Shown here: in pieces, positions 1 to 64,000 of the stretch | Numbering within the stretch: the stretch's first letter is position 1 | Layout of the letters: every line of letters begins with the position of its first letter | From: Gemmatimonadaceae bacterium | GTDB taxonomy: Bacteria; Gemmatimonadota; Gemmatimonadetes; Gemmatimonadales; Gemmatimonadaceae | Direction: 5' to 3' | Length of the DNA stretch: 64,000 nucleotides | NCBI GenBank assembly: GCA_019637355.1 | Contig: JAHBVT010000001.1 | Location: forward strand, 806,001 to 870,000 | Notes under the pieces: generated by a model | The model's input: the letters and a program-made list of their open reading frames with translations, nothing else | The model's database searches: none | Told to the model about the DNA's origin: nothing | Program-made: the position numbers and the translations under genes

Positions 1-1010
1 TCCGGGCTGCTCGCGATGCGCGCCGCCAGGTGCGGCGTGAAGAAGCGCTCGAAGTTGCTGCGCGCCAGCATCTCGGCCTTGATGCGCTCGGCGAACTGCC
101 CGTTCTCCAGCGCCACCGCCGCGATGCCCGAGAAGGCGATCAGGAAGTCCAGGTCCGTCTCGCCGAAGCGCTTGAGCGAGAAGTTGTCCACGTAGATCAC
201 GCCCAGCGCCTTGTTCTCGCTGCCGATCAGCGGCACGCACATCGCCGAACGCACCTTCTGCAGCACGATCGACTGGCCGGTGAAGCGCTGGTCGTCGCCG
301 GCGTCGTCCGTCAGGATGGCGACCTTGTCCACCACCGCCTGAGTGGCGATCGATTGCGGCACGTCGCCGCTGGCGGCGGCGCCGCGGCGGTCGCGCGAGA
401 TCTGCGGATGCAGGTGGCCGTCGCGGTCCATCAGCAGGATGGCGCATCGGTCGGCCTCCAGCGTCTGGAACGCATACTCGGCGATCTTCACCAGCAGGCC
501 GTGCACGTCGGTGGCCTTGGTCAGGCCCTTGGCGACCTCGAGCAGGATGGCCAGCTTGCGGCGGTCCTTCTCGGCCGGGTCGGCGCTGGCGGCCATCGCC
601 TTGTTCACCGAGCCTGAGTCGCCGCTCAGCGCGCCTTGCTCACCCGTCTTGGGAATCTGCCGGACGATCGTCGCGCCGGCCGGCTTGGGTGGCGCTGGCG
701 GAGCGGCGGCGACAGGTGCCGGCGCCTCCACCTTCTCCAGCTTGAACACCACCTTGCCGAAGGTGATCTCGGCGCCCGGCGCGGCGTGCGTCGAGTCCAC
801 GCGCACCCCGTTCACGAAGGTGCCGTTGCTCGAGCCGGCGTCGGTGATCTCGATGCCGTTCTCGGTCAGCTTCAGGTCCGCGTGCTTGCGGCTGACCGTC
901 GGGTCCACGACGGGGCACTCGTTGGACACCGCGCGCCCCACGCTGTGCGGGCCAGCGCCCTTGAGCTCGAACTTGAAGTCGTTCCCGACGCCGATCAGGC
1001 GAAAGTGCAT
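1..1010 (-). CDS. FHA-GAF signalling protein, 3' end beyond window (probable adenylate/guanylate cyclase)
   Basis: Partial: at least 336 residues, running off the left edge. The start ATG is at 1008-1010 and the protein begins MHFRLIGVGNDFKFEL. Residues 1-95 form a forkhead-associated domain (GRAVSNECPVVDPTVSRKHA, then SSNGTFVNG), which binds phosphothreonine peptides. A proline/alanine linker follows, then a GAF domain at about residues 155-310 (ADRCAILLMDRDG, CVPLIGSENKALGVIYVDN). The last visible residues, NFERFFTPHLAARIASSPG, match the linker that usually precedes a class III nucleotide cyclase domain, so a C-terminal cyclase is inferred but not seen. It lies 14 bp downstream of trpE on the same strand and may be cotranscribed with it. 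Confidence 0.85.
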   Translation of the reverse strand, partial: MHFRLIGVGNDFKFELKGAGPHSVGRAVSNECPVVDPTVSRKHADLKLTENGIEITDAGSSNGTFVNGVRVDSTHAAPGAEITFGKVVFKLEKVEAPAPVAAAPPAPPKPAGATIVRQIPKTGEQGALSGDSGSVNKAMAASADPAEKDRRKLAILLEVAKGLTKATDVHGLLVKIAEYAFQTLEADRCAILLMDRDGHLHPQISRDRRGAAASGDVPQSIATQAVVDKVAILTDDAGDDQRFTGQSIVLQKVRSAMCVPLIGSENKALGVIYVDNFSLKRFGETDLDFLIAFSGIAAVALENGQFAERIKAEMLARSNFERFFTPHLAARIASSP

Positions 1011-1024
1011 TGTCCAAATATGAC

Positions 1025-2518
1025 CTAGGCGCGGCCCCCTCGCACCCGTCCGATGGCCGTCAGCATCGCGCGGGCCTTGGCGGCGGTCTCCTCCCACTCC
1101 GCCGCGGGGTCCGAGTCGGCCACGATGCCGGCCCCCGCCTGCACGTTGGCGCGGTCGCCGGCCAGCACGCAGGTCCGGATGGTGATGCAGAGGTCCATCC
1201 GGGCGTCGCCCCAGCCGATGTGCCCCACCGCGCCCGCATACGGGCCGCGGCGCTCCGGCTCCAGCGTGTCGATCAGCTGCATCGCCCGCACCTTGGGCGC
1301 GCCGGTCATCGTCCCGGCCGGAAACACGGCCTGGAACGTCGCCAGCGCCGAGCTCGCGTCGCGCAGGATGCCCTCCACCGAACTCACCAGGTGCAGCACG
1401 TGCGAGTAGCGCTCGACGACCATCAGGTCCGGCACCGTCACGCTGCCATAGCGCGCCACGCGCCCCACGTCGTTGCGGCCCAAGTCCACCAGCATCACGT
1501 GCTCGGCGCGTTCCTTGGGGTCGGCGAGCAGCTCGGCGCCGCGCGCGGCGTCTTCCTCGGGCGTCGTCCCGCGGGGCCGCGTGCCCGCGATCGGCCGCAC
1601 CACCACCTTCCCGTCCGCCACGCGCACCAGCAACTCCGGCGAGCTGCCCACCAGCTCGAGGTCCTCGAGCACGAGGTGGAACATATACGGCGACGGATTG
1701 AGCACCCGGATCGCGCGGTACAGCGCCGTACCGTCAAAGTCCCGCGGCAGGCTGATGCGCCGCGCCAGCAGGCACTGGAAGACATCCCCGGCGAGGATGT
1801 GCTCCTTGATGCGGCCGACGTGCTCCAGGAAGCGCTCCCGCGTGGTGTTCGACTCGCCTGCGGCGGGCGCGGCATCGCCGTCGAGCTCCAGCGGCGGCAG
1901 CGCGGGGCCACTGCGCAGGCGCGCGACGGTCGCGGCGATCTCCCCTTCGGCCTGCGCGTAGGCGTCGCGCAGCGCGGAATCGCTCGGCGTCGCCGGCACG
2001 GCGACGCTGGCCACCACGCGGGCCTGCGCCTTGAGATTGTCCACGATGACCACCGTGCCCGTGAGCAGGAACAGCGCATCGGGGCAGGGAATGCCGCGCG
2101 GCGGCGCGTCGGGCAGGCGCTCGATGTGGCGGACGACGTCATAGCCGAAGAAGCCCACGCCGCCGCCCCAGAACGGCCCCAGCTCCGGCACGTCCACGGG
2201 GGCGTGCTGCACGAGCTGCGCGCGCAGGTCGGCGAAGGGGTCATCGGGCCGGCGCGCCCCGTGCCAGCCCTGCGCCGGCGACCAGTCTTCGACTACGCCG
2301 TCGCTGAGGCGCCAGGCGCCGCGAGGTTCCGTGCCGAAGAACGAGTACCGCGCCCAGGTCTCGCTGCCGGCAGGGGCCGATTCCAGCAGGAAGGCGAAGG
2401 GCCCCTGCCGCAGCCGGTGGAACGCGCCCACGGCCGTGTCGCCATCCAGCAGGATGTCGCGCCACACGGGCACCAGCCCACCCGCGCGCGCACGGGCGGC
2501 GAAGGCCTCGAAACTCAT
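1025..2518 (-). CDS. trpE: Anthranilate synthase component I
   Basis: 497 residues, the usual length for TrpE. It converts chorismate to anthranilate, using ammonia from the TrpG glutaminase, in the first step of tryptophan synthesis in the cytoplasm. Chorismate-binding-domain motifs are intact: GDVFQCLLARRIS, RPIAGTRPRG, DLGRNDVGRVA, HLVSSVEG, the GTMTGAPKVRAM block near residue 400, and GAGIVADSDP. The start MSFEAF at 2518 is preferred over an in-frame codon 63 bases upstream because that extension has no family similarity. No trpG or other trp gene is in the window. PabB is a related alternative, but the long N-terminal domain favours TrpE. It is divergent from the outer-membrane protein gene at 2572, across 53 bp. 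Confidence 0.9.
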   Translation of the reverse strand: MSFEAFAARARAGGLVPVWRDILLDGDTAVGAFHRLRQGPFAFLLESAPAGSETWARYSFFGTEPRGAWRLSDGVVEDWSPAQGWHGARRPDDPFADLRAQLVQHAPVDVPELGPFWGGGVGFFGYDVVRHIERLPDAPPRGIPCPDALFLLTGTVVIVDNLKAQARVVASVAVPATPSDSALRDAYAQAEGEIAATVARLRSGPALPPLELDGDAAPAAGESNTTRERFLEHVGRIKEHILAGDVFQCLLARRISLPRDFDGTALYRAIRVLNPSPYMFHLVLEDLELVGSSPELLVRVADGKVVVRPIAGTRPRGTTPEEDAARGAELLADPKERAEHVMLVDLGRNDVGRVARYGSVTVPDLMVVERYSHVLHLVSSVEGILRDASSALATFQAVFPAGTMTGAPKVRAMQLIDTLEPERRGPYAGAVGHIGWGDARMDLCITIRTCVLAGDRANVQAGAGIVADSDPAAEWEETAAKARAMLTAIGRVRGGRA

Positions 2519-2571
2519 TGCGCGACTTCCCCCGCGCGGTTGTGACTGCCCATACGCTCCGCAATCTTTGA

Positions 2572-4665
2572 ATGATGCCACTCCAGCGCGCGGCGCTCGC
2601 CGCGGCCGCCCTGGCCCTCGCCGGCGCCACCGTCCCGCTCGCCGCCCAGGCGGACTGGAACGACGAACGCACCCAGCAACTCGTCGGTGCCGCCATCCAA
2701 CGGCGCAGCGTCCAGCTCGCGGACACCGCGCTGCGCGACTACACCGCCCGCGCCTCCGGCACGCTCACCTTCCTCGCCCAGTTCGGCGACGGATTCCTCT
2801 CGCGCCCGGTCGTCGTCAAGGCCGACCAGATCGAGCTCGAAGTCTATTGGGGCGCGCCCGACCGCAGCAAGCAACGCATCGTCGGTCGCCGCGATACCCT
2901 GCTGCTCCCCACGGACCTCGCCTACCACCGCGACCACCTCGGCATCATCCAGAACAACTTCCCCGACATCATCCGCCTCGGGGACGGCGACGAAGTGCTC
3001 GACGTCATCCACCCGCTGAGCCCGGCGGGTCCGCTGGTGTACGACTACGCCATCGCCGACTCGCTGGTCATCCGCGGCACCGGCCTCGACCTCAACGTCC
3101 TGATGGTGGACGTGCGGCCCAAGGATCCCCGCCGCCCCGCCGCCGTCGGCGCGCTGTACATCGACCGCGCCACCTCCAGCGTGGTGCGGATGACCTTCTC
3201 GTTCACGCGCGCCGCCCTGCGCGACCGGCAGCTCGACGACGTGTCCGTGATCCTCGAAAACGGCCTCGTGGACGGACGCTTCTGGTTGCCGCGCCGCCAG
3301 GAGATCGAGATCCGCCGCTCCGCCAGTTGGATGGACTTCCCCGCCAAGGGCATCATCCGCGGCCGCTGGGAAATCTGCTGCGTCGAGACCAATCGCTCGC
3401 TGCCCGCACCGCTGTTCCTCGGCGGCGAGATCGTCGAAGCCGGCCCGCCAGCGCAGTTGCGGCAGCACCCCGCCTTCAGCGGCAGCGTGCTCGATGCCAT
3501 CCCCGACGACGCGCGCGCCCTCGACGACGTCGAGGTGCGCGCGGTGCAGGAGGAAGCGCGTCGCCTGGTGCAGGAGGCGGCACTGCTGCGCACGCGTGGC
3601 GCGAATCTCGCGGCAGGGCGGATCTCGGATTTCGTGCGCGGCGACCGTGTGGAGGGCCTCGCCTTCGGCGCTGGGCTCTCGCAGCGGCTCGGCGGCGGAT
3701 TCACGGCCCGCGTGCTCGGGCGCTACGGCAGCGCCGATGAGCGAGCCAAGGGGCGGGGCAGCCTCGCCTGGCAGCGGGCCTCGGGCTGGTCGCTCACCGT
3801 CGAGGGCTTCGACGACTGGCAGCAACTCGGCGAAGTGCCCGAGGTCAGCGGTGTCAGGAATACCCTTGCGGCGCAGGAGTTCGGCAGCGACTGGACCCAG
3901 CCCATCGGCGCCGTGGGCGGCGCGCTGCGTGCGCAGTGGGCACCGCCGGGGCGCGGTCGCTGGTCGCTGGAGTGGCGGAGGCAGAACGAGCGCGCGCTGG
4001 AGCAGCGCGCCACGCCGGCCTTCGGTCGCTTTGAGCCCACGCTGCCCGCCGCCGCGCTCACGCGCGACCTGTTCACGCTCGGCTACGAGCGCAGCGGATC
4101 GCTCGGGCGCACGGCGGCCGTGGGTGCGCTGCTCGATTCCGATTGGCGATTCACCAGCCGCCTCGGCGGCAGCCAGTGGGCGCTGCGCGACGGCTCGGCA
4201 GAAGGCAGCCTGCTCCGTGCGGGCATCGACCTAGAACTCTCGTACCCACTCGGCGGCACGCGCCTGCGGCTGCGGAGCATTGCCGCCGCCACCAGCGCCG
4301 GCGGTGTGCCGCTGCAGGATCGCGTCCTGCTCGGCGGCCCGGTGAGTGGCCCAGGCTACGAGTTCCACGCCTTCGCCGGCCGCGCCGGCTTCAGCCAGCG
4401 TGTGGAACTGCAGCGCCGCATTCCGTTCGTCCCGATCGACCTGGGCCGCTTCGGACGCGTGCCGGGGAGCCTGGTTCTCGCGCCCTTCGCCCACGCCGTC
4501 TGGGTGCACGACGACCTTGGCGGGCGCTCCGGCTGGTCGCCGGCACTGGGCGTGGGTGCCATCGGGCTCTTCGACCTGCTCCGCGTGGACGTGGCCCGTG
4601 GGCTGCGCAACGGTCGCTGGACGTTCTCGCTGGATCTGAGTCGCAGCCTCTGGCCCGTGCTGTGA
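2572..4665 (+). CDS. Predicted outer-membrane beta-barrel protein (DUF5686/BamA-like)
   Basis: 697 residues. The N-terminus MMPLQRAALAAAALALAGA is a signal peptide ending near ALAAQA. The N-terminal half contains short beta-rich segments (LVYDYAIADSLVIRG, GALYIDRATSSVVRM) like those of DUF5686-type proteins. The C-terminal half, from about residue 360, alternates polar and hydrophobic residues as in a beta-barrel and ends with surface-antigen-like pieces (LLGGPVSGPGYEFHAFAGR, FSQRVELQRRIPFVP). The two-part layout suggests a periplasmic domain plus an outer-membrane barrel. Family assignment is by resemblance only, and the substrate is unknown. ATG at 2575 is an equally good start. No partner gene is adjacent. 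Confidence 0.6.
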   Translation: MMPLQRAALAAAALALAGATVPLAAQADWNDERTQQLVGAAIQRRSVQLADTALRDYTARASGTLTFLAQFGDGFLSRPVVVKADQIELEVYWGAPDRSKQRIVGRRDTLLLPTDLAYHRDHLGIIQNNFPDIIRLGDGDEVLDVIHPLSPAGPLVYDYAIADSLVIRGTGLDLNVLMVDVRPKDPRRPAAVGALYIDRATSSVVRMTFSFTRAALRDRQLDDVSVILENGLVDGRFWLPRRQEIEIRRSASWMDFPAKGIIRGRWEICCVETNRSLPAPLFLGGEIVEAGPPAQLRQHPAFSGSVLDAIPDDARALDDVEVRAVQEEARRLVQEAALLRTRGANLAAGRISDFVRGDRVEGLAFGAGLSQRLGGGFTARVLGRYGSADERAKGRGSLAWQRASGWSLTVEGFDDWQQLGEVPEVSGVRNTLAAQEFGSDWTQPIGAVGGALRAQWAPPGRGRWSLEWRRQNERALEQRATPAFGRFEPTLPAAALTRDLFTLGYERSGSLGRTAAVGALLDSDWRFTSRLGGSQWALRDGSAEGSLLRAGIDLELSYPLGGTRLRLRSIAAATSAGGVPLQDRVLLGGPVSGPGYEFHAFAGRAGFSQRVELQRRIPFVPIDLGRFGRVPGSLVLAPFAHAVWVHDDLGGRSGWSPALGVGAIGLFDLLRVDVARGLRNGRWTFSLDLSRSLWPVL

Positions 4666-4760
4666 CCCGGCCCAGAATGCGGAGTCCGGGAGGTAGCCGC
4701 CCGACGCCGCTGACGTATCTTTGTGACGGCAACTCCTGACACGACCCCGAGGACCTCGAA

Positions 4761-10674: not shown

Positions 10675-11304
10675 TTACTTCGTCGCGGCCAGCGCGGACG
10701 CTGCCACCTCGGCCTCGGCGCGGCTCGTGATGACCTGGTCAATCAACCCGTAGCCAACCGCTTCCTCGGAGCTCATAAACCGGTCGCGATCCACGTCGCG
10801 CTCGATCTGCTCCAGCGGACGGCCCGTGTGCTTGGCCATCAACTCGTTCATCCGGCTGCGAAGGTACAGGATCTCCTTCGCCTGGATCTCGATGTCCGCC
10901 GCCGTGCCCGACGCGCCGCCCGACGGCTGGTGGATCATGATGCGCGAGTTCGGCAGCGCCGAGCGCTTGCCCTTCGCGCCCGCCGTCAGCAGGAAGGCAC
11001 CCATCGACGCCGCCAGGCCCATACAGATCGTGTTCACCGGCGACTTCAGGAATTGCATTGTATCGTAGATCGCCAAGCCCGCGCTCACGCTGCCGCCCGG
11101 CGAGTTGATGTACAGGTGGATGTCGCGCCCCGGGTTGTCCGCCTCGAGGAACAGCAGTTGGGCGATGATCATATTCGCCACGTCATCGTTCACCGGCGTG
11201 CCGAGGAAGATGATGCGGTCCATCAGCAGGCGGCTGTACACGTCGTAGCTGCGCTCGCCGCGGCTGCTGCGCTCGATCACATACGGATTCGGGATGATCG
11301 CCAT
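10675..11304 (-). CDS. clpP: ATP-dependent Clp protease proteolytic subunit ClpP
   Basis: 209 residues. The tetradecameric serine peptidase of the ClpXP/ClpAP complexes. The catalytic triad is visible: Ser100 in [11 protein letters not shown], His125 in MIHQPSGG and Asp174 in DRDRF. The N-terminal IPNPYVIE loop and the [13 protein letters not shown] segment are typical. ATG at 11304 is chosen because AAGGAG lies just upstream and the family starts here; a longer in-frame reading adds unrelated residues. It sits 11 bp after tig, the classical tig-clpP-clpX order. Confidence 0.98.
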
Positions 11305-13578: not shown

Positions 13579-13580
13579 CG

Positions 13581-16201: not shown

Positions 16202-16283
16202 TGCGAAAGGTGGGACTCGAACCCACACGCCTTGCGGCACGGGATCCTAAGTCCCGCGCGTCTACCAATTCCGCCACTCTCGC
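16202..16283 (-). tRNA. tRNA-Leu (anticodon UAG)
   Basis: 82 nt, minus strand. The acceptor stem GCGAGAG pairs with CTTTCGC, with one G-U pair. The anticodon arm is CGGGA-CTTAGGA-TCCCG, giving anticodon TAG. A class II variable arm follows (TGCCGCAAGGCGT), and the T arm contains GTTCGAGTC. The discriminator is A at 16202 and CCA is not encoded. It is directly upstream of crtI. Confidence 0.96.
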
Positions 16284-21091: not shown

Positions 21092-21703
21092 GTGAGATTC
21101 CTGCCGAAGGACGAAGGCTTCTTTGGTCTCTTCGATCAACTCGCCGCGCACCTGATGACGGCTGCTGCGCACCTCCGAGACCTCTTCCAACATCCCGAAC
21201 GCCACGACGAGATCGTCGTGAAGGTCAAGGCCGAGGAACACGCCGCCGACCTGCTGACCTACGACATTATGCAGCGCATCGACCGGTCGTTCGTGACGCC
21301 GCTCGACCGCGAGGACATCCACCTCCTCGCCAACCGCCTCGACAACGTCGTCGACCTGATGGACGGCACGGCCCGTCGGGCCACGATGTTCCACATCACG
21401 ACGCGCCGTCAGCCCGCGATCGATCTCGTGGACGTCCTCGTGGAATGCTCCGGCGTGCTGGCGAAGGGCGTGAAGGAGATCCGCAACCCGCAGGCGGTGC
21501 ACAAGGTGGCGCGGCAGGTGAAGGAACTGGAGGAGAAGGCCGACGCGCTGTACGCCAAGGCCATCAGCGACCTCTTCGCCGGGCAGCCGGACGCGCTCGA
21601 GGTCATCAAGTGGAAGGAGATCTACGACAACCTCGAGCACGCCGTGGATGAGTGCGAGGACGTCGCGAACGTGCTCGAGAGCATCTCCCTCAAGAACTCC
21701 TGA
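21092..21703 (+). CDS. DUF47/PhoU-like protein, phosphate-transport accessory
   Basis: 203 residues, all-helical, typical of the DUF47 (PhoU-like) family that pairs with Pit transporters. It begins MRFLPKDEGFFGLFDQLA, the family start, at a GTG. An upstream GTG at 21026 is in frame, but between them lies a leader hairpin (CCGCGCGA/TCGCGCGG, 21036-21054), so I treat that stretch as 5' leader. Conserved helices include HDEIVVKVKAEEHAAD and LANRLDNVVDLMDG. The pit gene starts seven bases after the stop. The likely role is controlling Pit activity. Confidence 0.88.
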   Translation: MRFLPKDEGFFGLFDQLAAHLMTAAAHLRDLFQHPERHDEIVVKVKAEEHAADLLTYDIMQRIDRSFVTPLDREDIHLLANRLDNVVDLMDGTARRATMFHITTRRQPAIDLVDVLVECSGVLAKGVKEIRNPQAVHKVARQVKELEEKADALYAKAISDLFAGQPDALEVIKWKEIYDNLEHAVDECEDVANVLESISLKNS

Positions 21704-22746: not shown

Positions 22747-24936
22747 ATGAATCCGCTGGCCTCCAAGAACCCCGCGTTCCTGAACCGCGAGCTGTCGTGG
22801 CTCGAGTTCAATGCGCGGGTGCTCCACGAGGCCGAGGACGAACGCACGCCGCTGCTCGAGCGCGTGAAGTTTCTCGCCATCTACGGCTCCAATCTCGACG
22901 AGTTCTATATGGTCCGCGTGGCGGGCCTGCGCCGGCAGCTTTCGGCCGGCGTGTTGCAGACCGCGGTGGACGGACTGAGCCCGGCCGAGCAGTTGGCGCT
23001 CATCGACGCGCGGGTGCTGGAGCTCAACGCGCGCGCGCGCACGCTGCTCAAGGACACGCTGCTGCCGGCCCTGCGCGGTATCGGCGTGCGCCTGCTCGCT
23101 GCCTCCGAGCTGGAGGCCGACGAACGCGAGACGGTGGCGGCGTTCTTCGACAACCAAGTCTTCCCGGTGCTCACACCGCTGGCGGTGGATCCGGGCCATC
23201 CGTTCCCGTACATCTCCAACCTCTCGCTCTCGCTCGCGGTGGAACTGCGCGACCCCGAGCAGGGCGACGTGCGCTTCGCGCGCGTGAAGGTGCCCAAGAG
23301 CCTGCCGCGCTGGGTGCCCACGGGACGTCCCAACAGCTACATCCCGCTCGAGGCGCTGATCGGCGACCGGCTCGACGCGCTGTTTCCCGGGATGGAGGTC
23401 CTCGGCCACTGGACCTTCCGGCTCACGCGGTACTCGGACCTCGAGATCTCGCACACCGAGGAGCCCGAGGACCTGCTGGCAAGCATCGAGGAGCAGCTGT
23501 TCCAGCGTCGCTTCGGCGAGGTCGTGCGCCTCGAGGTGGAGGAAGGCACGCCGGCGCACCTGCGCGCGCTGCTGCTCGACGAGCTGCGCGGCAGCGAGGC
23601 GCCGGAGATGGCGCCGCTGACCGAGCGCGAGCTGCACGCGCCCGGGCCGTTGCTCGACCTCTCGGACTTCCTGCCGCTGTCCGGCCTCGACTTTCCGGAG
23701 CACCGCGATCCGCCGCTGATCCCGGCCGTGCCGCCCGAGCTGCGCGACACCACCCGCTCGATCTTCGACGTGGTGCGCGAGCAGGAGATCCTCATCCACC
23801 ATCCCTTCGACTCCTTCGGGGCCTCGGTGGAGACCTTCATCGAGAGCGCCGCGCGCGACGAACAGGTGCTGGCCATCAAGATGACGCTCTACCGCACCAG
23901 CGGCGACGGGGCCATCGTGCAGGCCCTCACCGAGGCGGCCCAGCGCGGCAAGCAGGTCGCCGTGCTGGTGGAGCTGCAGGCGCGCTTCGACGAGATCAAC
24001 AACATCGCCTGGGCGCGCACGCTCGAGTCCTTCGGCGTGCACGTGGTCTACGGCCTGCCCGGCCTCAAGACACACACCAAGACGGCGCTGGTGGTGCGCA
24101 AGGAAGCCGACGGCATCCGGCGCTACGTGCACATCGGCACCGGCAACTACAACACGCGCACCGCCCGCATCTACACCGACCTCGGGCTCATCACCTGCGA
24201 CGAAGCCATCGGCGCCGACATCACCGACCTGTTCAACTCGCTCACCGGTTATTCGCGCCAGCGCGAGTACCGCCGCTTGGTCGTGGCGCCGGTGAATATG
24301 CGCGAGCGGGTGCTCGGGCTCATCGCCCGCGAGGCGGCGCACGCCCGTGCGGGGCGGCCGGGTCGCATCATCGCCAAGATGAACGCCCTCGTGGACGCGC
24401 AGATCGTCGAGGCGCTCTACGACGCATCCGACGCCGGCGTCGAGATCGACCTCATCATCCGTGGCATCTGCTGCCTGCGGCCGGGCGTCGAGGGCCTGTC
24501 GGAGCGCATCCGCGTGATCAGCATCATCGGGCGCTTCCTGGAGCACTCGCGCATCTGGATGTTCGGCAACGACGGCGCGCCGGAGTACTACTTCGGCTCG
24601 GCCGACTGGATGCCGCGCAACCTCGACCGCCGCGTCGAGGTCGTCACGCCGGTGGAGAACCCGCTCTTCCAGCGACGCATCCAGTCCGTGCTCGATGTCT
24701 GCCTCAGCGACAATCGCCAGGCCTGGGATCTCAAGTCGGATGGCTCGTACGTGCAGCGCCAGCCCGAGCCCGGGCGCGGTGAGCGCGCGACGCACCGAAT
24801 GCTGCTGCGCGACAGTTGGGGCGGTAGCCGCGAGAGCGGCGCGTTCACCTTCGACGTGAGCCCGCTGCAGCGCAGCAAGGAACCGGGGCGACCGCCGAGT
24901 TCGACGGCGGAGTTCCGGGCGTTCAGCGGCGGCTGA
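22747..24936 (+). CDS. ppk: Polyphosphate kinase
   Basis: 729 residues, PPK1 type. It polymerises the gamma phosphate of ATP into polyphosphate. The N-terminal domain begins NRELSWLEFNARVLHEA. The phosphorylated histidine is His443 (KTHTK) and the second active-site histidine is His462 (YVHIGTGNYN), spaced 19 residues apart as in E. coli PPK (H435/H454). Being in one transcription unit with pit and the accessory protein suggests that imported phosphate is directly stored. It is convergent with the phosphoesterase gene, six bases away. Confidence 0.97.
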   Translation: MNPLASKNPAFLNRELSWLEFNARVLHEAEDERTPLLERVKFLAIYGSNLDEFYMVRVAGLRRQLSAGVLQTAVDGLSPAEQLALIDARVLELNARARTLLKDTLLPALRGIGVRLLAASELEADERETVAAFFDNQVFPVLTPLAVDPGHPFPYISNLSLSLAVELRDPEQGDVRFARVKVPKSLPRWVPTGRPNSYIPLEALIGDRLDALFPGMEVLGHWTFRLTRYSDLEISHTEEPEDLLASIEEQLFQRRFGEVVRLEVEEGTPAHLRALLLDELRGSEAPEMAPLTERELHAPGPLLDLSDFLPLSGLDFPEHRDPPLIPAVPPELRDTTRSIFDVVREQEILIHHPFDSFGASVETFIESAARDEQVLAIKMTLYRTSGDGAIVQALTEAAQRGKQVAVLVELQARFDEINNIAWARTLESFGVHVVYGLPGLKTHTKTALVVRKEADGIRRYVHIGTGNYNTRTARIYTDLGLITCDEAIGADITDLFNSLTGYSRQREYRRLVVAPVNMRERVLGLIAREAAHARAGRPGRIIAKMNALVDAQIVEALYDASDAGVEIDLIIRGICCLRPGVEGLSERIRVISIIGRFLEHSRIWMFGNDGAPEYYFGSADWMPRNLDRRVEVVTPVENPLFQRRIQSVLDVCLSDNRQAWDLKSDGSYVQRQPEPGRGERATHRMLLRDSWGGSRESGAFTFDVSPLQRSKEPGRPPSSTAEFRAFSGG

Positions 24937-43123: not shown

Positions 43124-43956
43124 GTGCCGCCGCGCAGGACCACGGCGCGACTGCCGCCCGCGCCGCTGCCGACGCGGTGCGCGCACGGCTCGGCGTGACG
43201 TCGCCGGCGGCCGCCATCGTGCTGGGCTCCGGGCTCGGTGGCCTTGCCGAGCGCGTGGCCAATGCGCGTCGCGTGCCGTATGCCGAGATCCCGGGATTCC
43301 ACGCCCCCGGCGTGGAAGGGCACCGCGGCGAGTTGATCGCCGGCACGCTCGGCGGGCGCGAAGTGCTGCTGCTGGCCGGACGCTTCCATATGTATGAGGG
43401 CCACAGCGCGCAGGTGGCGGCGTTCCCCGTGCGCGTCGTGCACGGGCTCGGCGCGCAGGTGCTGTTCGTCTCCAACGCGGCCGGCGGCATCAACCGGGCG
43501 TTCCCGCCGGGCACGCTGATGATGATCGTGGACCATCTCAACCTGCAGTTCCGCAATCCGCTGGAAGGCCGCGTGGAGCCGGGTGACATTCGCTTTCCGG
43601 ATATGAGCGCGCCGTATGCGCCGCGGCTCCAGGCGCTGCTGGATGCCGCCGCCGCCGAGGTCGGGCTGACGTTGGCGCGCGGAGTGTATGCCGGGCTGCT
43701 CGGGCCCACCTACGAGACGCCGGCCGAGGTGCGGATGCTCGCGACGCTCGGAGCCGACGCCGTCGGGATGAGCACCGTACCCGAAACCATCGTTGCGCGC
43801 GCGATCGGGATGGAGGTCGCCGGGGTTTCCTGCATCACCAATCCGGCGGCCGGCATCAGCGAGACGCCGCTGAATCACGCCGAGGTGATGGACGAAGGCC
43901 GCAAGGCCGGCGCGGCGTTCTGCGGCCTGGTCGAGCGCTGGGTGGCGAAGCTCTAG
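43120..43956 (+). CDS. punA: Purine nucleoside phosphorylase (class I)
   Basis: 278 residues, trimeric inosine/guanosine PNP. It uses phosphate to split nucleosides into base plus ribose-1-phosphate. Motifs: VLGSGLGGLAERV, GELIAGTLGG, GRFHMYEGHS, SNAAGGIN, GPTYETPAEVRML and CITNPAAGIS. The true start is GTG 43120 (MSAAAQDHG), overlapping the add stop by four bases; a longer in-frame reading from 42823 is antisense-type noise within add. Confidence 0.94.
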   Translation: MSAAAQDHGATAARAAADAVRARLGVTSPAAAIVLGSGLGGLAERVANARRVPYAEIPGFHAPGVEGHRGELIAGTLGGREVLLLAGRFHMYEGHSAQVAAFPVRVVHGLGAQVLFVSNAAGGINRAFPPGTLMMIVDHLNLQFRNPLEGRVEPGDIRFPDMSAPYAPRLQALLDAAAAEVGLTLARGVYAGLLGPTYETPAEVRMLATLGADAVGMSTVPETIVARAIGMEVAGVSCITNPAAGISETPLNHAEVMDEGRKAGAAFCGLVERWVAKL

Positions 43957-45406: not shown

Positions 45407-46842
45407 CCATTCGCGGCCGGTTGGCGCTGGTGCTCGCCGTCAACGCGCTGCTCGTTGCGGCGTTGGTGGCCGTGCACGCGCGTACGGCCAACCGCAGCGA
45501 TTGGCTCGCGCGCGCGCTCGCAGACGTCTCGGCGCAGCTCGTGCTCTCCAGCGCCCAGCTCGCCACGCGCGCGCAGCAGCTCGACGAGTCGCTCGCCAAG
45601 TACGCGATTACGCGGGATGCGGGCTATCGCGAGCGTGCGGCCGAACTGCGTGCCGCAATCGGCGTCGAGTTGGAGCAGCTGGCCGCCCTAGAGCTGGAAG
45701 AGGACGAGGCTGCGGCGCTCGCGACGGTGGGACGCCAGTGGCTCGATGCGCGTGCGGCCACGTCGGCCGTGGCCGTGCCGGGCCGCGCCTCGGCCGCTGG
45801 GCAGGAGGCCGCGCATCGGGCACTCGAAGCGTTCACGCTGGCCGTCGCCGACCTCGGCAACCGTGCCCGCGTCGTGATGCGCGCGCGCGTCGCGGCGGCG
45901 TCAGACGCGGCCGACCGCGCCCAACGTCTCTCGCTGCTGCTGGCGGCCCTCGCCACGCTGCTGGCCCTGTTCTCGGCGCTGATGCTCTCGCGGGCCATCG
46001 TCGATCCACTGCGCCGCCTCGTGCGGGGCACCGAAGAGGTCGCGCAGGGCCGCTTTGACCATCGTCTCGCACCAGAGCGCGGCGCAGAGTTTGCATTGGT
46101 GGCCGGGGCGTTCAATGGGATGACGGAGCGCCTGGGCGCGCTCGACAAGATGAAGCGCGAGTTCGTCTCGAACGTCTCGCACGACCTCAAGTCGCCGCTG
46201 GCCTCGCTCCGCGAATCCGGCGACGTGCTCCTGGACGGCGTCGCGGGCCCGCTGACGCCGCAGCAGCGCCGTGTGCTCACGCTGCAACGCGAGAGTGCCG
46301 ATCGGTTGGGCCGGATGATTGCCAAGTTGCTCGAGCTGTCGCGGCTTGAGGCTGAGCCGGCGCTGGTCCAGGCGCCGCTCGACCTCGCGCGGATCGCGCA
46401 CGCCGCGGCGCGACAGGCAGAGCCCGTCGCCACTGCGCGCGGGCAGCGCCTGCGCGTGCAGGTCTCGGGCGCGGTGCCGGTGGTCGGGGACGAAGACGCG
46501 CTGCGCTCCCTGCTCGACAACCTCATCGAGAACGCGCTGAAGTTCTCACCGGACGCGGCGGAGATTGAGATTATTGCGGCCGCGGACGGCACCCAGGCCA
46601 TGCTGCAGGTCTGCGACCGCGGCCCAGGCGTGCCGGAGGCCGAGCGCGGGCGGATCTTCGAGCGCTTCCAGCAGACGGCGGCGGGCCGCAACGTGACGGC
46701 TCGGGGCGTCGGACTCGGCCTCACCATCTGCCGCGAGATTGCTCGGGCGCACGGCGGACGCATCGGCGTGCGGGCGCGCGCGGGTGGCGGGAGCGTGTTC
46801 GAGGTGTCGTTGCCGCTCACCGCCGCCGCGGTGGCCGCGTGA
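45403..46842 (+). CDS. Sensor histidine kinase, partner of the NtrC-like regulator (GlrK-like)
   Basis: 479 residues. Membrane helix at 5-24, a mainly helical periplasmic region of about 150 residues (4-helix-bundle type, rich in Ala/Arg), a second helix near 180-202, HAMP, then HisKA (REFVSNVSHDLKSPLASLRE) and HATPase (NLIENALKFSP, DRGPGVPEAERGRIFERF, GVGLGLTICRE). GTG start overlaps the regulator stop (GTGA). The domain layout and gene order resemble GlrK. Confidence 0.92.
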   Translation: MTIRGRLALVLAVNALLVAALVAVHARTANRSDWLARALADVSAQLVLSSAQLATRAQQLDESLAKYAITRDAGYRERAAELRAAIGVELEQLAALELEEDEAAALATVGRQWLDARAATSAVAVPGRASAAGQEAAHRALEAFTLAVADLGNRARVVMRARVAAASDAADRAQRLSLLLAALATLLALFSALMLSRAIVDPLRRLVRGTEEVAQGRFDHRLAPERGAEFALVAGAFNGMTERLGALDKMKREFVSNVSHDLKSPLASLRESGDVLLDGVAGPLTPQQRRVLTLQRESADRLGRMIAKLLELSRLEAEPALVQAPLDLARIAHAAARQAEPVATARGQRLRVQVSGAVPVVGDEDALRSLLDNLIENALKFSPDAAEIEIIAAADGTQAMLQVCDRGPGVPEAERGRIFERFQQTAAGRNVTARGVGLGLTICREIARAHGGRIGVRARAGGGSVFEVSLPLTAAAVAA

Positions 46843-58122: not shown

Positions 58123-58222
58123 ACGAGCTGAACAGCAGATCCAGGCGTAGGTCATCGCCTGAACAGGTGATCCGGGTGGGCCGCGCGTGACACCTCGCCG
58201 GCCTTGGCGGGTAGTAGCGGAT

Positions 58223-58669
58223 ATGACTCCACGTTCAGTCCGCTTGGTTCTCGTTGGTTTCGCCGTCATCGCTGCCTCCTGCGCCGAGTCGTCCGATCTC
58301 ATCCCGCCGCCCGTGCTCGATGTTGTCGAGGGCGGCCCCGTGCGCGCCGAAGTGCTCGAGGAGCTCGCGCTGCCGGGTGAGGCCGTGGACGTTCGCTTCG
58401 TGAACAGTTCCGGCACGGAGTACTGGTTCAATCCCTGCGAACGGACAGTTGAGCGCCTGGTGGACGGGGTGTGGGTGAGCCTGGGCCAGGAGATGCGGCT
58501 CTGCACGGCCGTCGCCTACCTGCTGATGCCGAACGGACGGCGCACCGATCCCGTGGATGTACCGGGCGACCTCGGTCCGGGCACCTACCGCTTCCGCTTC
58601 GAGCTCAGGCCCCCGAGCACGACGGACGTCCGCGCGCGGCCCGCCAGTTCGACCTTCGAGGTCCAGTAG
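58223..58669 (+). CDS. Small predicted lipoprotein of unknown function
   Basis: 148 residues. MTPRSVRLVLVGFAVIAASC is a lipoprotein signal with lipobox AASC. The mature part is predicted beta-rich (AEVLEELALPGEAVDVRFVN, GTYRFRFELRPPST), like an Ig-fold protein, with two Cys (NPCERTV, MRLCTAV) that may pair. GTG at 58187 is in frame but would bury the signal peptide. It stands alone between the porin and ffh. Confidence 0.62.
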   Translation: MTPRSVRLVLVGFAVIAASCAESSDLIPPPVLDVVEGGPVRAEVLEELALPGEAVDVRFVNSSGTEYWFNPCERTVERLVDGVWVSLGQEMRLCTAVAYLLMPNGRRTDPVDVPGDLGPGTYRFRFELRPPSTTDVRARPASSTFEVQ

Positions 58670-58700
58670 CGCGGAGGCCCCGGCAGGGCCCGTGAAGGCC

Positions 58701-58729
58701 TTGGAAGACGCCACCTAAGTGGTTATCCT
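58701..58729 (+). promoter_or_regulatory. Probable housekeeping promoter of ffh
   Basis: TTGGAA at 58701-58706, 17-base spacer, TATCCT at 58724-58729. The predicted transcription start at about 58735-58737 is only a few bases before the ATG at 58740, so the message would be almost leaderless. Confidence 0.5.
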
Positions 58730-58739
58730 TCAAGGCTCT

Positions 58740-60038: not shown

Positions 60039-60090
60039 GACGGAGGACGGATGACGGATGCCACTTGCGGTTAGTTTCCGTCATTCGTCC
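60038..60090. repeat. GACGGA heptads and inverted partner between ffh and rpsP
   Basis: Heptads GGACGGA, GGACGGA and TGACGGA at 60038-60058. CCGTCATTCGTCC at 60078-60090 can pair with GGACGGATGACGG at 60045-60057 with one G-U type mismatch. The stem begins at the ffh stop codon, so it may terminate or process the ffh message. Third occurrence of this heptad family in the window. Confidence 0.75.
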
Positions 60091-60177
60091 AGTTTGGACC
60101 CTGGTGCGCACCGGAAACGCCGGACCGCGCGATGAGCCAGAGGGCAGTACGAAACCAGTAGCACCGAGGTATCTCCA

Positions 60178-60483
60178 ATGGCAGTTCGCATTCGTCTCCG
60201 CCGTCAGGGGCGCAAGAAGTCCCCGACCTATCGCATCGTCGTCGCCGACGGCCGTTCGCCGCGCGATGGCAAGTTCATCGAGATCCTCGGGCAGTACGCG
60301 CCGCGGTCCGGTGAGCAGGCGATCCAGCTCAACGCCGAGCGCGCCAACTACTGGCTCGACAACGGCGCCCAGCCGTCCGACACCGTGCGCTCACTGCTGC
60401 GCAAGGCCGGCGTGCTCAAGGCCCGTCACGAGACGCGCCTGGCGTCCAAGCTGGCCGCCAAGGCCGTGCCGGTGAAGGAGTAA
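60178..60483 (+). CDS. rpsP: 30S ribosomal protein S16
   Basis: 101 residues. Typical S16: MAVRIRLRRQGRKKSPTYRI, VVADGRSPRDGKFIEILG and YWLDNGAQPSDTVRSLLRKA. GAGGT lies just upstream of the ATG. rimM follows by eight bases. Confidence 0.97.
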   Translation: MAVRIRLRRQGRKKSPTYRIVVADGRSPRDGKFIEILGQYAPRSGEQAIQLNAERANYWLDNGAQPSDTVRSLLRKAGVLKARHETRLASKLAAKAVPVKE

Positions 60484-60491
60484 TCCACGGC

Positions 60492-61046
60492 GTGTCGCTC
60501 CCCGACTGCGCGTCTGTGGGGCGGATCCGTCGCCCGCACGGCGTGCGCGGCGAGTTGGTGGTGGACGTGATGACAGACGAGCCAGGGGCGATCTTCGCTC
60601 CTGGCCGTCGTGTCTTTCAGGGGACCCACGACGGTGAGCTCTCGGTGGATCCACGCACCCGCGCGCCTCGCGAGCTCGTCGTCAGCTCCCTGCGGCCGAT
60701 CAAGGACGGTTGGCTGATGCGCTTCGACGGCATCAACGACCGCACCGAGGCCGAAAAGTGGAACGGGCGCTATCTCCTCGTGCCGGTGGAAGAACTCTCC
60801 GAGCCCGAGGAGGGTGAGGTCTTCGCGCACGAGTTGGTGGGAATGCAACTCGTGGATGCCGGCTCGTCGGCAACGATCGGTGAGGTCATCGAGTTCTACG
60901 ACCTGCCGCAGGGGCTGTTGCTGGAGTTCCGCACCAGCGCGGGCGCGGTGGCCAGCCTGCCATTCGTGGATGAGTTCGTGGACGCACTGGACCGCGAGGC
61001 TCGAACGATCCGGGTGCGCTTGCCCAACGGGTTGCTGGACGCCTAG
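60492..61046 (+). CDS. rimM: 16S rRNA processing protein RimM
   Basis: 184 residues. It assists assembly of the 30S head. N-domain VGRIRRPHGVRGELVVDVMT; PRC-barrel C-domain LVGMQLVDAGSSATIGEVIE and PFVDEFVDALDREARTIRV. GTG start. In most bacteria trmD follows directly; here a divergent SDR/tetR pair intervenes. Confidence 0.95.
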   Translation: MSLPDCASVGRIRRPHGVRGELVVDVMTDEPGAIFAPGRRVFQGTHDGELSVDPRTRAPRELVVSSLRPIKDGWLMRFDGINDRTEAEKWNGRYLLVPVEELSEPEEGEVFAHELVGMQLVDAGSSATIGEVIEFYDLPQGLLLEFRTSAGAVASLPFVDEFVDALDREARTIRVRLPNGLLDA

Positions 61047-61049
61047 CAC

Positions 61050-61076
61050 GGCCGTCAGCGCCGCTCGCTGACGGCC
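61050..61076. terminator. Hairpin at the rimM/SDR convergent ends
   Basis: GGCCGTCAGCG at 61050-61060 pairs with CGCTGACGGCC at 61066-61076, loop CCGCT. It overlaps the SDR stop codon and is four bases after the rimM stop. Probably a bidirectional terminator; no U-tract. Confidence 0.65.
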
Positions 61077-61984
61077 TTCGCGTGGCCGAACGGATCGAAG
61101 CGCGGAATCCGGCGTCCGTCCACATCGGTGAAGCCGTACTCTGCGGCGAGGTCGGCGACGAAATGGATGCGTCCCGACTTCTTGATGGCGTGTTTGTCTG
61201 CCGCGAGGGCGACGACCGCGCGCCCGACGTACTCCACCGATTCGCTCAGGTCGTAGCGGAACTGGCGCTCGACGGCCTTGGAGGTCATCGCACGCTTGAC
61301 ACGCTCCGTCTGCATAAAGCCAGGCATCAGCGTCACCACGGCGAGCTTGCTCTTCTTGGCGTCGGCGGCCATCCCCAGCAGCAGGCGGTTGATTGTCGTG
61401 TGACTCAGGTCGTAGAGCAGCATTCCGTTGTACTCGCCCGCCGATGCGCCCGTGAGCACCTCCGCCGGGGTGCCGTCCAGGAAGCCGTCCGTCACGCCGA
61501 CGATCAGCCCTCGCTTCCGCCGGGCCATCAGCCGCGCCGCGTGAAATGCCGTCAGGTAGTAGGCGCGAGGTCCTGCATCCATCATCCGCCGCCACTCGGA
61601 GGTGGATCGCTCCCAGAACGGGGTCCCCCACCCAGCCATCGCCTCGTCAGGGGCCGAGGTGCCGTCGGCCGCGCCCCAGACTGCGCTGGCAAGGACATCG
61701 AGCGCCCCCTGTTCACGCTCCACACGCGCGAAGAGTTCGGCGACTTCCGTCTCGCTGGTGCAGTCGGTGCGGACCGGAATCCCGATGCCGCCGCGTGCCG
61801 TCACGGCCTCCGCCGTCTCCTCGATGGTGCCGGGCGCGCCGTCGCTTGGCGGTGGACCGCCGCGGGTTGATCGGCCGACCACGTACACCGTCGCGCCCGC
61901 GTCGCCAAGCGCAAGCGCGATGCCTCGCCCTGCGCCGCGGCTCGCCCCGGCGACCACCGCGACCCTTCCGGTGAGTGTTGCCAT
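61055..61984 (-). CDS. Short-chain dehydrogenase/reductase family protein with altered catalytic Lys
   Basis: 309 residues. The Rossmann NAD(P) motif is GASRGAGRG (residues 13-21). The expected YxxxK active-site motif aligns with Y191-DLS-H195 (LLYDLSHTTINRLL), so the usual Lys is His. The C-terminal segment (GRIHFVADLAAEYGFTDVDG) resembles uncharacterised bacterial SDR proteins. ATG 61984 has GGAGG upstream. It is divergent from tetR with a shared palindrome, so it is probably TetR-controlled. Confidence 0.85.
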   Translation of the reverse strand: MATLTGRVAVVAGASRGAGRGIALALGDAGATVYVVGRSTRGGPPPSDGAPGTIEETAEAVTARGGIGIPVRTDCTSETEVAELFARVEREQGALDVLASAVWGAADGTSAPDEAMAGWGTPFWERSTSEWRRMMDAGPRAYYLTAFHAARLMARRKRGLIVGVTDGFLDGTPAEVLTGASAGEYNGMLLYDLSHTTINRLLLGMAADAKKSKLAVVTLMPGFMQTERVKRAMTSKAVERQFRYDLSESVEYVGRAVVALAADKHAIKKSGRIHFVADLAAEYGFTDVDGRRIPRFDPFGHAKAVSERR

Positions 61985-62035
61985 ACGCCTTGCCTCCACG
62001 TTTCGGTAGATTCTTACTGGCCGTACAGTTATCAT

Positions 62036-62051
62036 CTAAATGGCCATTTAG
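62036..62051. promoter_or_regulatory. Probable TetR-family operator
   Basis: Perfect 16-bp palindrome CTAAATGG-CCATTTAG in the SDR/tetR intergenic region. Outer CAGT and ACTG bases add partial symmetry. An AT-rich palindrome between a divergent regulator and enzyme is the standard TetR arrangement. Confidence 0.8.
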
Positions 62052-62064
62052 TTACTGTCAAGCA

Positions 62065-62079
62065 CCCCCTCCCCCCCCC
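62065..62079. repeat. Homopolymeric C tract just before tetR
   Basis: C5-T-C9 at 62065-62079, ending five bases before the tetR ATG. It occupies the place of the Shine-Dalgarno sequence, and slippage could change its length. Confidence 0.85.
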
Positions 62080-62084
62080 AGGCG

Positions 62085-62681
62085 ATGAGCCCACGCCCGC
62101 GAAAGATTTCCGACGACCAGGTCTTCGAGGCCCTGACCCGGGTGATGCAGCGCGTCCCCGCTGCGTCGCTGACGCTCGCCGAGGTCGGTGCGGAGGCGGG
62201 CGTCACGGCGAGCGCGCTCTCCCAGCGGTTTGGTTCGAAGCAGGCGCTGTTGCGTGCGCTGAACGCCCGCTTCGCCGAGGGCACCCCGGAACTGCTGGAA
62301 TCCATCCGCGAGCGGCACGCGTCGCCGGTCGCGGCCATCCGTGCGTGGGCCGAAGGATTTGCCTGGCTCATCGCCACGCCCTCCTCGCTGGCGCATCACC
62401 TCGGATATCTCCAGATGGACCTGTCCGATGAGGTGATGTTCACGCACCTGCAGAAGGCCACCCGCGCGACGCGCCGTACGTTGGCGCAGTGGGTGGCGGA
62501 GGCGGTGCAGGCCGGTGAGCTGCAGCCGGGCACGGACCCCGCAGCACTGGCGCGCCTGCTGCTGGCGACGGCGAACGGCTCGATGATGACGTACGCGCTT
62601 CTACGCCAGGGCAAGCCGGTCGAGTGGATCCGGGCGGACGTCGAGCTCGCCCTCGGGCCGTTTCGGGTGCCCGCGCGCTAA
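62085..62681 (+). CDS. TetR-family transcriptional repressor
   Basis: 198 residues. N-terminal helix-turn-helix (SLTLAEVGAEAGVTASALSQ, then RFGSKQALL). The C-terminal ligand domain is not recognisable by ligand. Divergent from the SDR gene with a 16-bp palindrome between. trmD starts nine bases after its stop, so trmD may partly be transcribed from the tetR promoter. Confidence 0.9.
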   Translation: MSPRPRKISDDQVFEALTRVMQRVPAASLTLAEVGAEAGVTASALSQRFGSKQALLRALNARFAEGTPELLESIRERHASPVAAIRAWAEGFAWLIATPSSLAHHLGYLQMDLSDEVMFTHLQKATRATRRTLAQWVAEAVQAGELQPGTDPAALARLLLATANGSMMTYALLRQGKPVEWIRADVELALGPFRVPAR

Positions 62682-62690
62682 GTTCTACCG

Positions 62691-63347
62691 GTGCTCTCCA
62701 TCAACCTCATCTCGATCTTCCCGGACTTCTTTGCCGGTCCGCTGGGGCTCAGCATCCCCAAGCGCGCCGCCGAGGCGGGGCTGGTGCGCTACAACTGCGT
62801 GGACCTGCGCGCCTTCGCCACCGACAAGCACAAGACCGTGGACGATGCGCCCTTTGGCGGCGGGCCGGGAATGGTGATGAAGCCGGCGCCCTTCTTCGAC
62901 GCGGTCGAGAGCGTCGGCGCGACGAAGCCAATCGTGTTGCTGTCCCCGCGCGGCAAGGTGTTCAGCCACGCCGATGCCCTGCGCTTTGCCGAGGGCACGG
63001 AGCTCACGCTGCTCTGCGGCCACTACAAGGACGTCGACCAGCGCGTGGCGGACCACTTGGCGACCGAGGAGATCTCGCTGGGCGACTTCGTGCTCAGCGG
63101 GGGCGAGCCGGCGGCGCTGGCCGTGGTGGATGCCGTCGTCCGGCTGCTGCCCGGGGCGATGAGCGACATCGAATCCGCCCGGACGGACTCCTTCTACGAC
63201 CGGGGGCTCTCGGCCCCCTCCTACACCCGGCCAGCGGAGTATCGCGGGCATAAGGTGCCGGAGGTGCTCTTGAGCGGGAATCACGCCGAGATCGAGCGCT
63301 GGCGGCGGGAAGAAGGGGAGCGCCTGACCCGGGAGCGCCGGGGCTAG
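62691..63347 (+). CDS. trmD: tRNA (guanine-N1)-methyltransferase TrmD
   Basis: 218 residues, at the short end of the family. It makes m1G37 in tRNAs with G36. Motifs: INLISIFPDFFAG, DDAPFGGGPGMVMKPAP, LLCGHYKDVDQRVADHL, EEISLGDFVLSGGEPAAL and TRPAEYRGHKVPEVLLSGNH. GTG start nine bases after the tetR stop. The trefoil-knot SAM site is intact; only the C-terminal helical tail is shortened. Confidence 0.96.
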   Translation: MLSINLISIFPDFFAGPLGLSIPKRAAEAGLVRYNCVDLRAFATDKHKTVDDAPFGGGPGMVMKPAPFFDAVESVGATKPIVLLSPRGKVFSHADALRFAEGTELTLLCGHYKDVDQRVADHLATEEISLGDFVLSGGEPAALAVVDAVVRLLPGAMSDIESARTDSFYDRGLSAPSYTRPAEYRGHKVPEVLLSGNHAEIERWRREEGERLTRERRG

Positions 63348-63353
63348 GCCCCG

Positions 63354-63382
63354 TTGCGCAAGCTCAAATCCGGCAGTAGCTT
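63354..63382 (+). promoter_or_regulatory. Possible promoter of rplS
   Basis: TTGCGC at 63354-63359, 17 bases, TAGCTT at 63377-63382, in the 87-bp trmD-rplS gap. Both boxes are imperfect. Confidence 0.3.
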
Positions 63383-63434
63383 ACAAGGCTCAACTCTGTC
63401 ACCTCAGCGGGCCGCAACGCGCCCGGAGTCACAT

Positions 63435-63815
63435 ATGCACGCTTTCACCGAAACTCAGAAGGAATACCTGAAGTCCGTGCCCGCTTTCCGCGCCGGCGAC
63501 ACGCTGCGCGTGAACGTGCGCGTGAAGGAAGGCGAGAAGGAGCGCCTTCAGGCGTTCGAGGGCGTGTGCATCGGCCGCAAGGGCGCCGGCGTCTCGGCGA
63601 CCTTCACGGTCCGCAAGATCTCCAACGGCGTGGGCGTGGAGCGCATCTTCCCGCTGCACTCGCCGATGCTGGCCGAGATCAAGGTCGTGCGCCGTGGCCG
63701 CGTGCGCCGCGCCAAGCTCTTCTATCTCCGCAACGTGACCGGCAAGGCCGCGCGTATCGCCGAGAAGAAGGTGCGCGTGCAGGTGCCGACCACGGGCGAG
63801 GCCGCGCAGGCCTGA
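63435..63815 (+). CDS. rplS: 50S ribosomal protein L19
   Basis: 126 residues. L19 blocks: [52 protein letters not shown] and [18 protein letters not shown] 63435 has GGAG upstream; an in-frame codon at 63354 is upstream noise. Confidence 0.97.
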
Positions 63816-63825
63816 GCCGCGCCAC

Positions 63826-64000
63826 GTGGCTGGCGGCTGGAGCGCCCTCGAGCGTTCGCTGCGCGCCGCCGGTGCGCTGCACATCGCCGGAGTGGATGAA
63901 GTCGGACGGGGCCCCCTAGCGGGCCCCGTCGTCGTTTGTGCCGTCGTGATGCCCGCTGGCCGCCGCGCCATCGCTGGCGTCACGGACTCCAAGCAGCTCA
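63826..64000 (+). CDS. rnhB: Ribonuclease HII, 5' part only
   Basis: Partial: runs off the right edge after 58 codons. GTG start ten bases after rplS. The catalytic opening [18 protein letters not shown] (first Asp-Glu pair) and TDSKQL identify RNase HII, which removes ribonucleotides from DNA hybrids. rplS-rnhB adjacency is common. Confidence 0.92.

Follow-up and report, generated by a model that had tools for sequence, protein, structure and literature searches.

A Gemmatimonadaceae chromosome nearly emptied of CATG and a putative restriction-modification pair that probably purged it

The tetranucleotide CATG is the target word of NlaIII and HpyI (iceA1), two restriction-modification (R-M) systems with D12-type adenine methyltransferases. 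The present analysis deals with the near absence of this word from a window of 64,000 nucleotides (the whole stretch of DNA analyzed) in the main contig (C1) of Gemmatimonadaceae bacterium GCA_019637355.1, hereafter G000, and with a pair of genes lying outside it, P0006 and P0007, which encode a putative endonuclease and a C5-type DNA methyltransferase and are probably the agent of the purge. UpaP162, the Ureaplasma parvum endonuclease described in PMC6191088, cleaves CATG between A and T, cuts TCATGA and ACATGT poorly, and is blocked by its cognate methyltransferase; NlaIII is called its neoschizomer there. Avoidance of palindromic sites is described as established for orthodox Type II systems, linked to their long residence, and scored below a threshold ratio of 0.78 (Rusinov et al. 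2015, PMC4687349). The G000 pair resembles the UpaP162 system, as represented by two mycoplasma relatives, in that a C5-family methyltransferase sharing its kind of target domain stands beside an endonuclease gene, but P0006 is dissimilar to the two UpaP162-family nucleases compared, and in G000 the nuclease gene comes first. With NlaIII and HpyI the likeness is the target word, and the differences are their D12 adenine methyltransferase and ICEA-type nuclease.

The window contains exactly two CATG words, against an expectation of 184.7 under a second-order Markov model (z -19.7) and of 178.7 from base composition; 100 dinucleotide-preserving shuffles gave 232 +/- 13. A first-pass annotation made by eye had placed its only two sites near 10936 and 46599 and expected of the order of 180, and both the positions and the estimate hold. 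The bases preceding ATG on the plus strand are G in 503 cases, A in 58, T in 42 and C in 2. The same annotation would have given up its claim had the count approached the Markov expectation, or had unrelated AT-containing tetranucleotides been equally low, and neither is the case: the other low words are TTAA (0 observed, 3.1 expected), CTTA (10 and 23), TTAG (6 and 14) and CTAG (19 and 41), and, CATG aside, no word expected more than 100 times is lower than AACC (75 versus 144).

The named relatives of the polyphosphate kinase encoded in the window put G000 among the Gemmatimonadaceae, the best of them, at 81%, coming from an uncultured Gemmatimonadetes MAG. The depletion extends along the chromosome. 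The genome comprises 3.15 Mb in three contigs, of which C1 accounts for 3.14 Mb, and in the 878 kb of C1 sampled, islands included, CATG occurs 220 times against 2646 expected. Among 41 stretches of C1 outside the window, the observed/expected ratio (O/E) lies below 0.06 in 28, between 0.06 and 0.2 in 7, and above 0.2 in 6; in a first sample of 13 stretches of 20 kb beyond the window the counts are 48 versus 807 (O/E 0.059), the next lowest word being CTAG with 0.465. A core subset of 304 kb, made of 13 of 22 stretches with the window included, the island-bearing ones having been dropped post hoc after the counts of the first sample, retains 12 CATG against 911 expected (ratio 0.013), so that about 99% of the word has been eliminated there. 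Genome-wide, GCATGC is found 50 times and its mirror word CGTACG 982 times. The parts of C1 richer in CATG mostly coincide with lower G+C. Three stretches (L284, G000:C1:750001-770000; L023:9000-20000; L118:1628-7134) carry CATG at about half to full expectation and are probably recently acquired DNA, and residual CATG may be a marker of islands in this genome.

Comparison with relatives, which the first-pass annotation had proposed, showed that sister species are less depleted and placed the loss on the G000 branch. Orthologues of the window genes were aligned with those of G011, at 85% amino-acid identity, and of G015, which is more distant (80%). Only 1 of 110 CATG sites of G011 is retained in G000, against 47-72% for five tested palindromes, 157/222 for CAAG and 7/59 for CTTG, the last value being probably due to codon preference. 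For the words shared by G011 and G015 (31 genes), G000 keeps 1/31 CATG, as compared to 24/32 GTAC, 86/101 TGCA, 63/79 ACGT, 53/77 AGCT and 88/129 GATC; pooling GTAC, TGCA, ACGT and AGCT gives 226/289 (Fisher p 4e-17 versus CATG). Gains restricted to G000 number zero for CATG and from 17 to 41 for each of these four words, and fourfold sites show a G000-only change in 14.5% of cases. CATG was lost at roughly 14 times the rate of the four control words pooled, an estimate that depends on a single survivor. Because 30 of the 31 shared sites were lost on the terminal branch of G000 and none was gained, the pressure acted on that branch. In 16 of the 17 genomes of the genus (G013 left out, and three values coming from less than 10 kb), CATG O/E is 0.01 in G000, 0.17 in G001, 0.37 in G015 and 0.40 in G008; it lies between 0.61 and 0.76 in G007, G005, G009, G006, G011 and G016, and reaches 0.80 in G003, 0.85 in G004, 0.86 in G002, 0.89 in G012, 0.93 in G010 and 1.04 in G014. 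CTAG, independently of CATG, is low in nearly all members of the genus (0.13-0.60, one tiny sample aside). G051, from a different family of the same order, shows 269 GCATGC versus 1193 CGTACG and is possibly CATG-poor too.

The way in which the word was removed can be followed through codon choice in a set of 185 genes, which were called from composition with a simple rule and cover 81% of 284 kb. Alanine before ATG is encoded by GCG in 201 of 216 cases, with GCC and GCT once each, versus GCC in 705 of 1207 cases before AAN, ACN or AGN; valine before ATG is GTG in 111 of 113, and tyrosine TAT in 22 of 22, versus 15 of 192 in comparison contexts. Histidine is never encoded by CAT when a codon starting with G follows (0/599, versus 253/921 elsewhere), NCA codons precede TGN in only 1 of 446 cases versus 113 of 1986 before other T-codons, and gaps of up to 400 bp between called genes hold one CATG versus 15.8 expected. 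The first-pass annotation had described a switch from C to T in the codon before ATG, and its quoted ATT-ATG, TAT-ATG and CAT-ATG are indeed present, but the usual replacement is G, in fourfold codons, T being found mainly in codons whose only synonymous choices are C and T. The depletion is thus caused by selection and not by mutation, whichever synonymous base was available having been swapped in all three codon frames.

A purely mutational origin is excluded because the replacements follow synonymy in every frame and not the deamination of methylated cytosine. Deamination of 5-methylcytosine, converting CATG to TATG or CATA, would suit a candidate methyltransferase of the C5 type and the C-to-T share (22/109) of the changes found in G000 at G011 CATG sites. 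However, C to G is commoner (49/109), T remains rare before ATG in fourfold boxes, and the frames CAT-G and NCA-TG, in which the protein would be altered by deamination, were emptied via other synonymous changes, so that this explanation, already contradicted by the substitution spectrum, is extremely improbable. An agent acting on RNA, for instance a ribonuclease toxin that cleaves CAUG and selects against the word in transcripts, is just as improbable: the palindrome allows no strand test and the short gaps may be transcribed, but G000 has a DNA system whose target domain fits, and an agent reading DNA fits the codon pattern, one reading RNA being less likely. Selection by a CATG-reading DNA system is therefore very probable, and the original proposal of selection against a CATG-cutting system stands as the best fit, since the spectrum excludes mutation alone and a candidate chromosomal pair has been found.

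That pair emerged from the search for a CATG methyltransferase and endonuclease which the first-pass annotation had recommended, done with four methyltransferase families over the whole G000 genome. P0006 and P0007 (C1:2847956-2850056) are encoded on the same strand in this order, 76 bp apart, and constitute the adjacent separate methyltransferase and endonuclease genes typical of orthodox Type II R-M systems, the nuclease assignment being weak; host avoidance of the site, common though not universal in such systems, would also apply if the pair reads CATG. P0007 matches PF00145 at 1e-70. In P0006, a PFD at 94-96 and an SVK at 106-108 read by eye like a variant PD-(D/E)XK centre, and neither Pfam nor NCBIfam families matched it up to E 1. 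This protein is present in G000 alone among 395 genomes of the phylum, and scans of genome contigs, viral contigs, plasmids and phages returned no relatives. The target-domain piece of P0007 matches 14 of 288 genomes of the order, with 243 bits in G000 and at most 61 bits in the others, where matches are mostly partial, that of G031 running along nearly the full piece at 41%; CATG O/E at these other loci is 0.61-1.31. The island around the pair (L119:7059-17313) is partly purged, with 6 CATG versus about 25, which is compatible with long residence.

The evidence linking P0007 to CATG comes from its target-recognition domain. Among the matches listed, its two top records in a plasmid collection are methyltransferases of Mycoplasmopsis cynos (43.7%) and Mesomycoplasma hyorhinis (42.0%), in records of 0.99 and 0.84 Mb that are probably chromosomes, and both adjoin endonucleases of the UpaP162 family (NF045956, 305 and 303 bits; cut-off 100). 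A piece of 107 amino acids of P0007, comprising the target domain and C-terminal motifs, is 61.7% and 58.9% identical to these carriers (E 3e-37 and 1e-33), and in the best 30 of 497 matching records the next match after them has an E of 8e-17 and near 44% identity; 4 of the 497 records reach 60-80% identity, one of them among those best 30. The closeness to the mycoplasma enzymes resides in the columns of the target domain, and P0007 carries the UpaP162-associated target domain as judged on these two carriers, so that it is predicted to methylate CATG. As in G000, CATG is depleted in both mycoplasma records, where it ranks lowest among 16 palindromes over 50 kb of M. cynos (31 versus 108, 0.29) and over 50 kb of M. 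hyorhinis (27 versus 70, 0.39). The G000 core is nearly emptied of CATG, whereas 1,450 motifs are reported for the Ureaplasma genome in PMC6191088. As for the nuclease, BLASTP revealed no meaningful similarity of P0006 to the UpaP162-family nucleases P0010 and P0011, and P0006 falls outside NF045956. As to the NlaIII-like specificity suggested initially, a CATG-type methyltransferase target domain has been found in the genome, but no NlaIII homologue was detected, and the ICEA family (PF05315) matched 0 of 80 genomes, with its positive control silent too.

The few surviving sites offer a further hint. TCATGA accounts for 4 of 12 survivors in the first core sample, counted before the weak contexts of UpaP162 were known to the analysis, and in a second sample of 20 stretches for 4 of 14 isolated survivors (those with no second CATG closer than 3 kb) and for 2 of the 71 that are clustered. 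Its pooled share, 8/26, exceeds that in relatives, 18/454 (p 2e-5), and matches one of the two contexts that UpaP162 cuts poorly, which counts in favour of an agent of the UpaP162 type. GCATGC is frequent as well in the second sample (5/14 isolated survivors).

Several observations weigh against the P0006/P0007 pair as the agent. G001 (L129), G008 (L130) and G015 (L125-L128) are partly depleted without the candidate pair, and none of the four methyltransferase families matched in G001, a draft 96% complete in about 130 contigs; the genus is therefore subject to another cause as well, which may have started the CATG purge. The UpaP162-associated methyltransferases compared are the two mycoplasma enzymes, and that the founder methyltransferase UPV229 makes 5-methylcytosine is doubted by its own authors in PMC6191088. 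Over its whole length P0007 is 46% and 44% identical to the mycoplasma pair and 41-43% to four other C5 relatives. M. hyorhinis also has a Sau3AI-family nuclease and a methyltransferase like P0009 (see below), and thus two candidate causes, leaving M. cynos, which is outside the 29 records with a Sau3AI-like match, as the only clean case; the mycoplasma CATG counts cover carriers only, a non-carrier control having been sought and not found. ACATGT, the other resistant context of UpaP162, appears in 0 of 26 survivors. The sole family match of P0006 is a weak one (5e-9, 34 bits) to a PADLOC model of Type II endonucleases. The DNA of the pair, with about 60% G+C versus 69% in the core, looks foreign and perhaps too young, and its own CATG count (0 versus 3.2 expected) is too small for dating. 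Finally, the viral contig IMGVR_UViG_3300033064_002494, where a methyltransferase 52% identical to P0007 is followed by an HSDR_N-type protein (L277:2557-4530), is not depleted in CATG (41 versus 44.9). This HSDR_N-type protein represents a third kind of neighbour for methyltransferases of the P0007 type. The haloviruses HGTV-1 (L257) and HCTV-16 (L258), with a related C5 target domain, show CATG ratios of 0.07 and 0.09, which say little because GATC is absent there as well (0 versus 158 and 0 versus 182 expected in 40 kb); in the 40 kb of HGTV-1, AGCT and CTAG are also absent.

Other systems could be responsible. The family search also yielded P0004, P0002, P0003, an MmeI-type gene, an Eco57I-type gene and, counting P0007, three C5 enzymes with candidate nucleases. 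A Sau3AI-like nuclease of the MutH type, encoded near P0009, occurs in 3 of 288 genomes of the order, G000, G015 and G009, whose CATG O/E values are 0.01, 0.37 and 0.66; the orthologues of P0009 are about 82% and 60-63% identical, and M. hyorhinis, with relatives of both genes, shows CATG at 0.39 and GATC at 1.17, as would suit a pair with changed specificity. Sau3AI itself reads GATC. Both genes group with Sau3AI (PDB 4pxg, E 8e-36; plasmid relatives annotated as Sau3AI family), and the GATC word expected for such systems is mildly depleted in G000 (0.70); the two genes hold 3 CATG versus 8.1 expected, and CATG in G009 is no lower than in several relatives lacking the pair, all of which makes this alternative, the main rival of P0006/P0007, unlikely. 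It is about as unlikely, if not slightly more so, that the purging was the work of a CATG system located in DNA outside the sample, carried by an unassembled plasmid or lost recently, while P0006/P0007 read another site: only 878 of the 3.14 Mb of C1 were read, relatives lacking the pair are partly depleted, and avoidance can outlast lost systems according to PMC4687349, but the whole-genome search with four families gave only the candidates listed, and the 30/31 sites lost on the G000 branch, with no new CATG, indicate a recent pressure. Much less likely is that P0004, a solitary adenine methyltransferase widespread in the genus, modifies CATG together with an unlinked nuclease. The annotation of some distant relatives in phages is ulcer-associated methyltransferase, as the CATG enzyme of H. 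pylori is called, but its closest phage relative, in Thermus phage phiLo, is noted as a putative M.Tsp509I, the gene occurs in 10 of 16 genus relatives regardless of how much CATG they have, no copy was found in G001 or G008, which are depleted, and its neighbour is weakly histidine-kinase-like (E about 0.02).

The remaining candidates were discarded. The MmeI-type gene is similar to enzymes of Type IIG, for which PMC4687349 counts site avoidance in 0 of 107 published cases, and relatives with normal CATG, G014 among them, have frames comparable to the Eco57I-type gene in length and family. P0002 and P0003, with a 383-aa protein of weak defence-family matches, lie in a stretch that looks recent (8 CATG versus 9.1), as does a C5/GIY-YIG pair (2 versus 6.5) beside a stretch with 21 versus 20.9. 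P0008, an apparent 241-aa gene beside P0009, looks like an antisense reading; weak methyltransferase matches at C1:1866673 and C1:1269940 were read as PrmC-like and RNA-methyltransferase-like frames; and a GTCGAC depletion of about 0.5 is common to G011 and G015 and so is no mark of the pair. In M. hyorhinis (L256), Sau3AI-family genes coexist with unavoided GATC in the 50 kb read.

Table 1. Positions of the features discussed; those without a contig name refer to the window.
Feature	Position	Strand	Remark
Whole window	1..64000 = G000:C1:806001-870000		sample of the chromosome-wide depletion, 2 vs ~185
Surviving CATG inside clpP	10936..10939		context TCATGA, over-represented among survivors
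Surviving CATG, sensor histidine kinase gene	46599..46602		context CCATGC
Avoidance example ATT-ATG	21266..21271		twofold-type codon preceding ATG
Avoidance example TAT-ATG	22906..22911	+	polyphosphate kinase gene (22747-24936)
Avoidance example CAT-ATG	43387..43392		
tRNA gene	16202-16283	minus	single; Rfam
P0006	C1:2849256-2850056 (L119:9256-10056)	minus	266 aa, putative PD-(D/E)XK endonuclease
P0007	C1:2847956-2849179 (L119:7956-9179)	minus	407 aa, C5-type DNA methyltransferase; UpaP162-type target-recognition domain
Sau3AI-like MutH-type nuclease	C1:2855946-2857313		
P0009	C1:2860254-2861639		C5 methyltransferase of the Sau3AI-like pair, which lies in L119 and L120
P0004	C1:2821125-2822183 (L006:9125-10183)	minus	solitary D12 adenine methyltransferase

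As judged from sequence comparison, the most likely pathway implies that P0006, the putative nuclease partner of P0007, would cut CATG, and that this pair, and not an earlier or different system, would have carried out the purging. The candidate defence endonuclease would attack CATG and at times damage its own chromosome, and such self-cutting would select for codons without CATG, clearing most of the chromosome. Since P0006 resembles none of the CATG enzymes compared, it may be new. A bolder proposal, which we advance only tentatively, is that P0006 founds a lineage of CATG endonucleases unrelated to UpaP162 and NlaIII, joined by partner exchange to a methyltransferase of the UpaP162 type, that self-cutting drove an unusually fast and complete purge, and that the core is now almost protected by the absence of targets and not by methylation. 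Site avoidance as such is already known, and, like the cases of Rusinov et al. (2015), the present one involves a palindromic Type II-like site; it differs in the ratio of 0.013 in the core and in a loss polarised against sister species. Of note are how nearly complete the purge is, its polarised rate, and the position of a CATG-type methyltransferase next to a putative nuclease that is unrelated; literature searches on UpaP162, on CATG and restriction-modification in Gemmatimonads, and on CATG avoidance did not list a report of it. A purge confined to a single branch, together with less depleted sisters and a named gene pair, would make the autoimmunity cost of restriction measurable in nature, and residual CATG could be used to recognise DNA that was acquired recently. 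If P0006 does cut CATG, a 4-base site in wide use may have gained a new lineage of enzymes.

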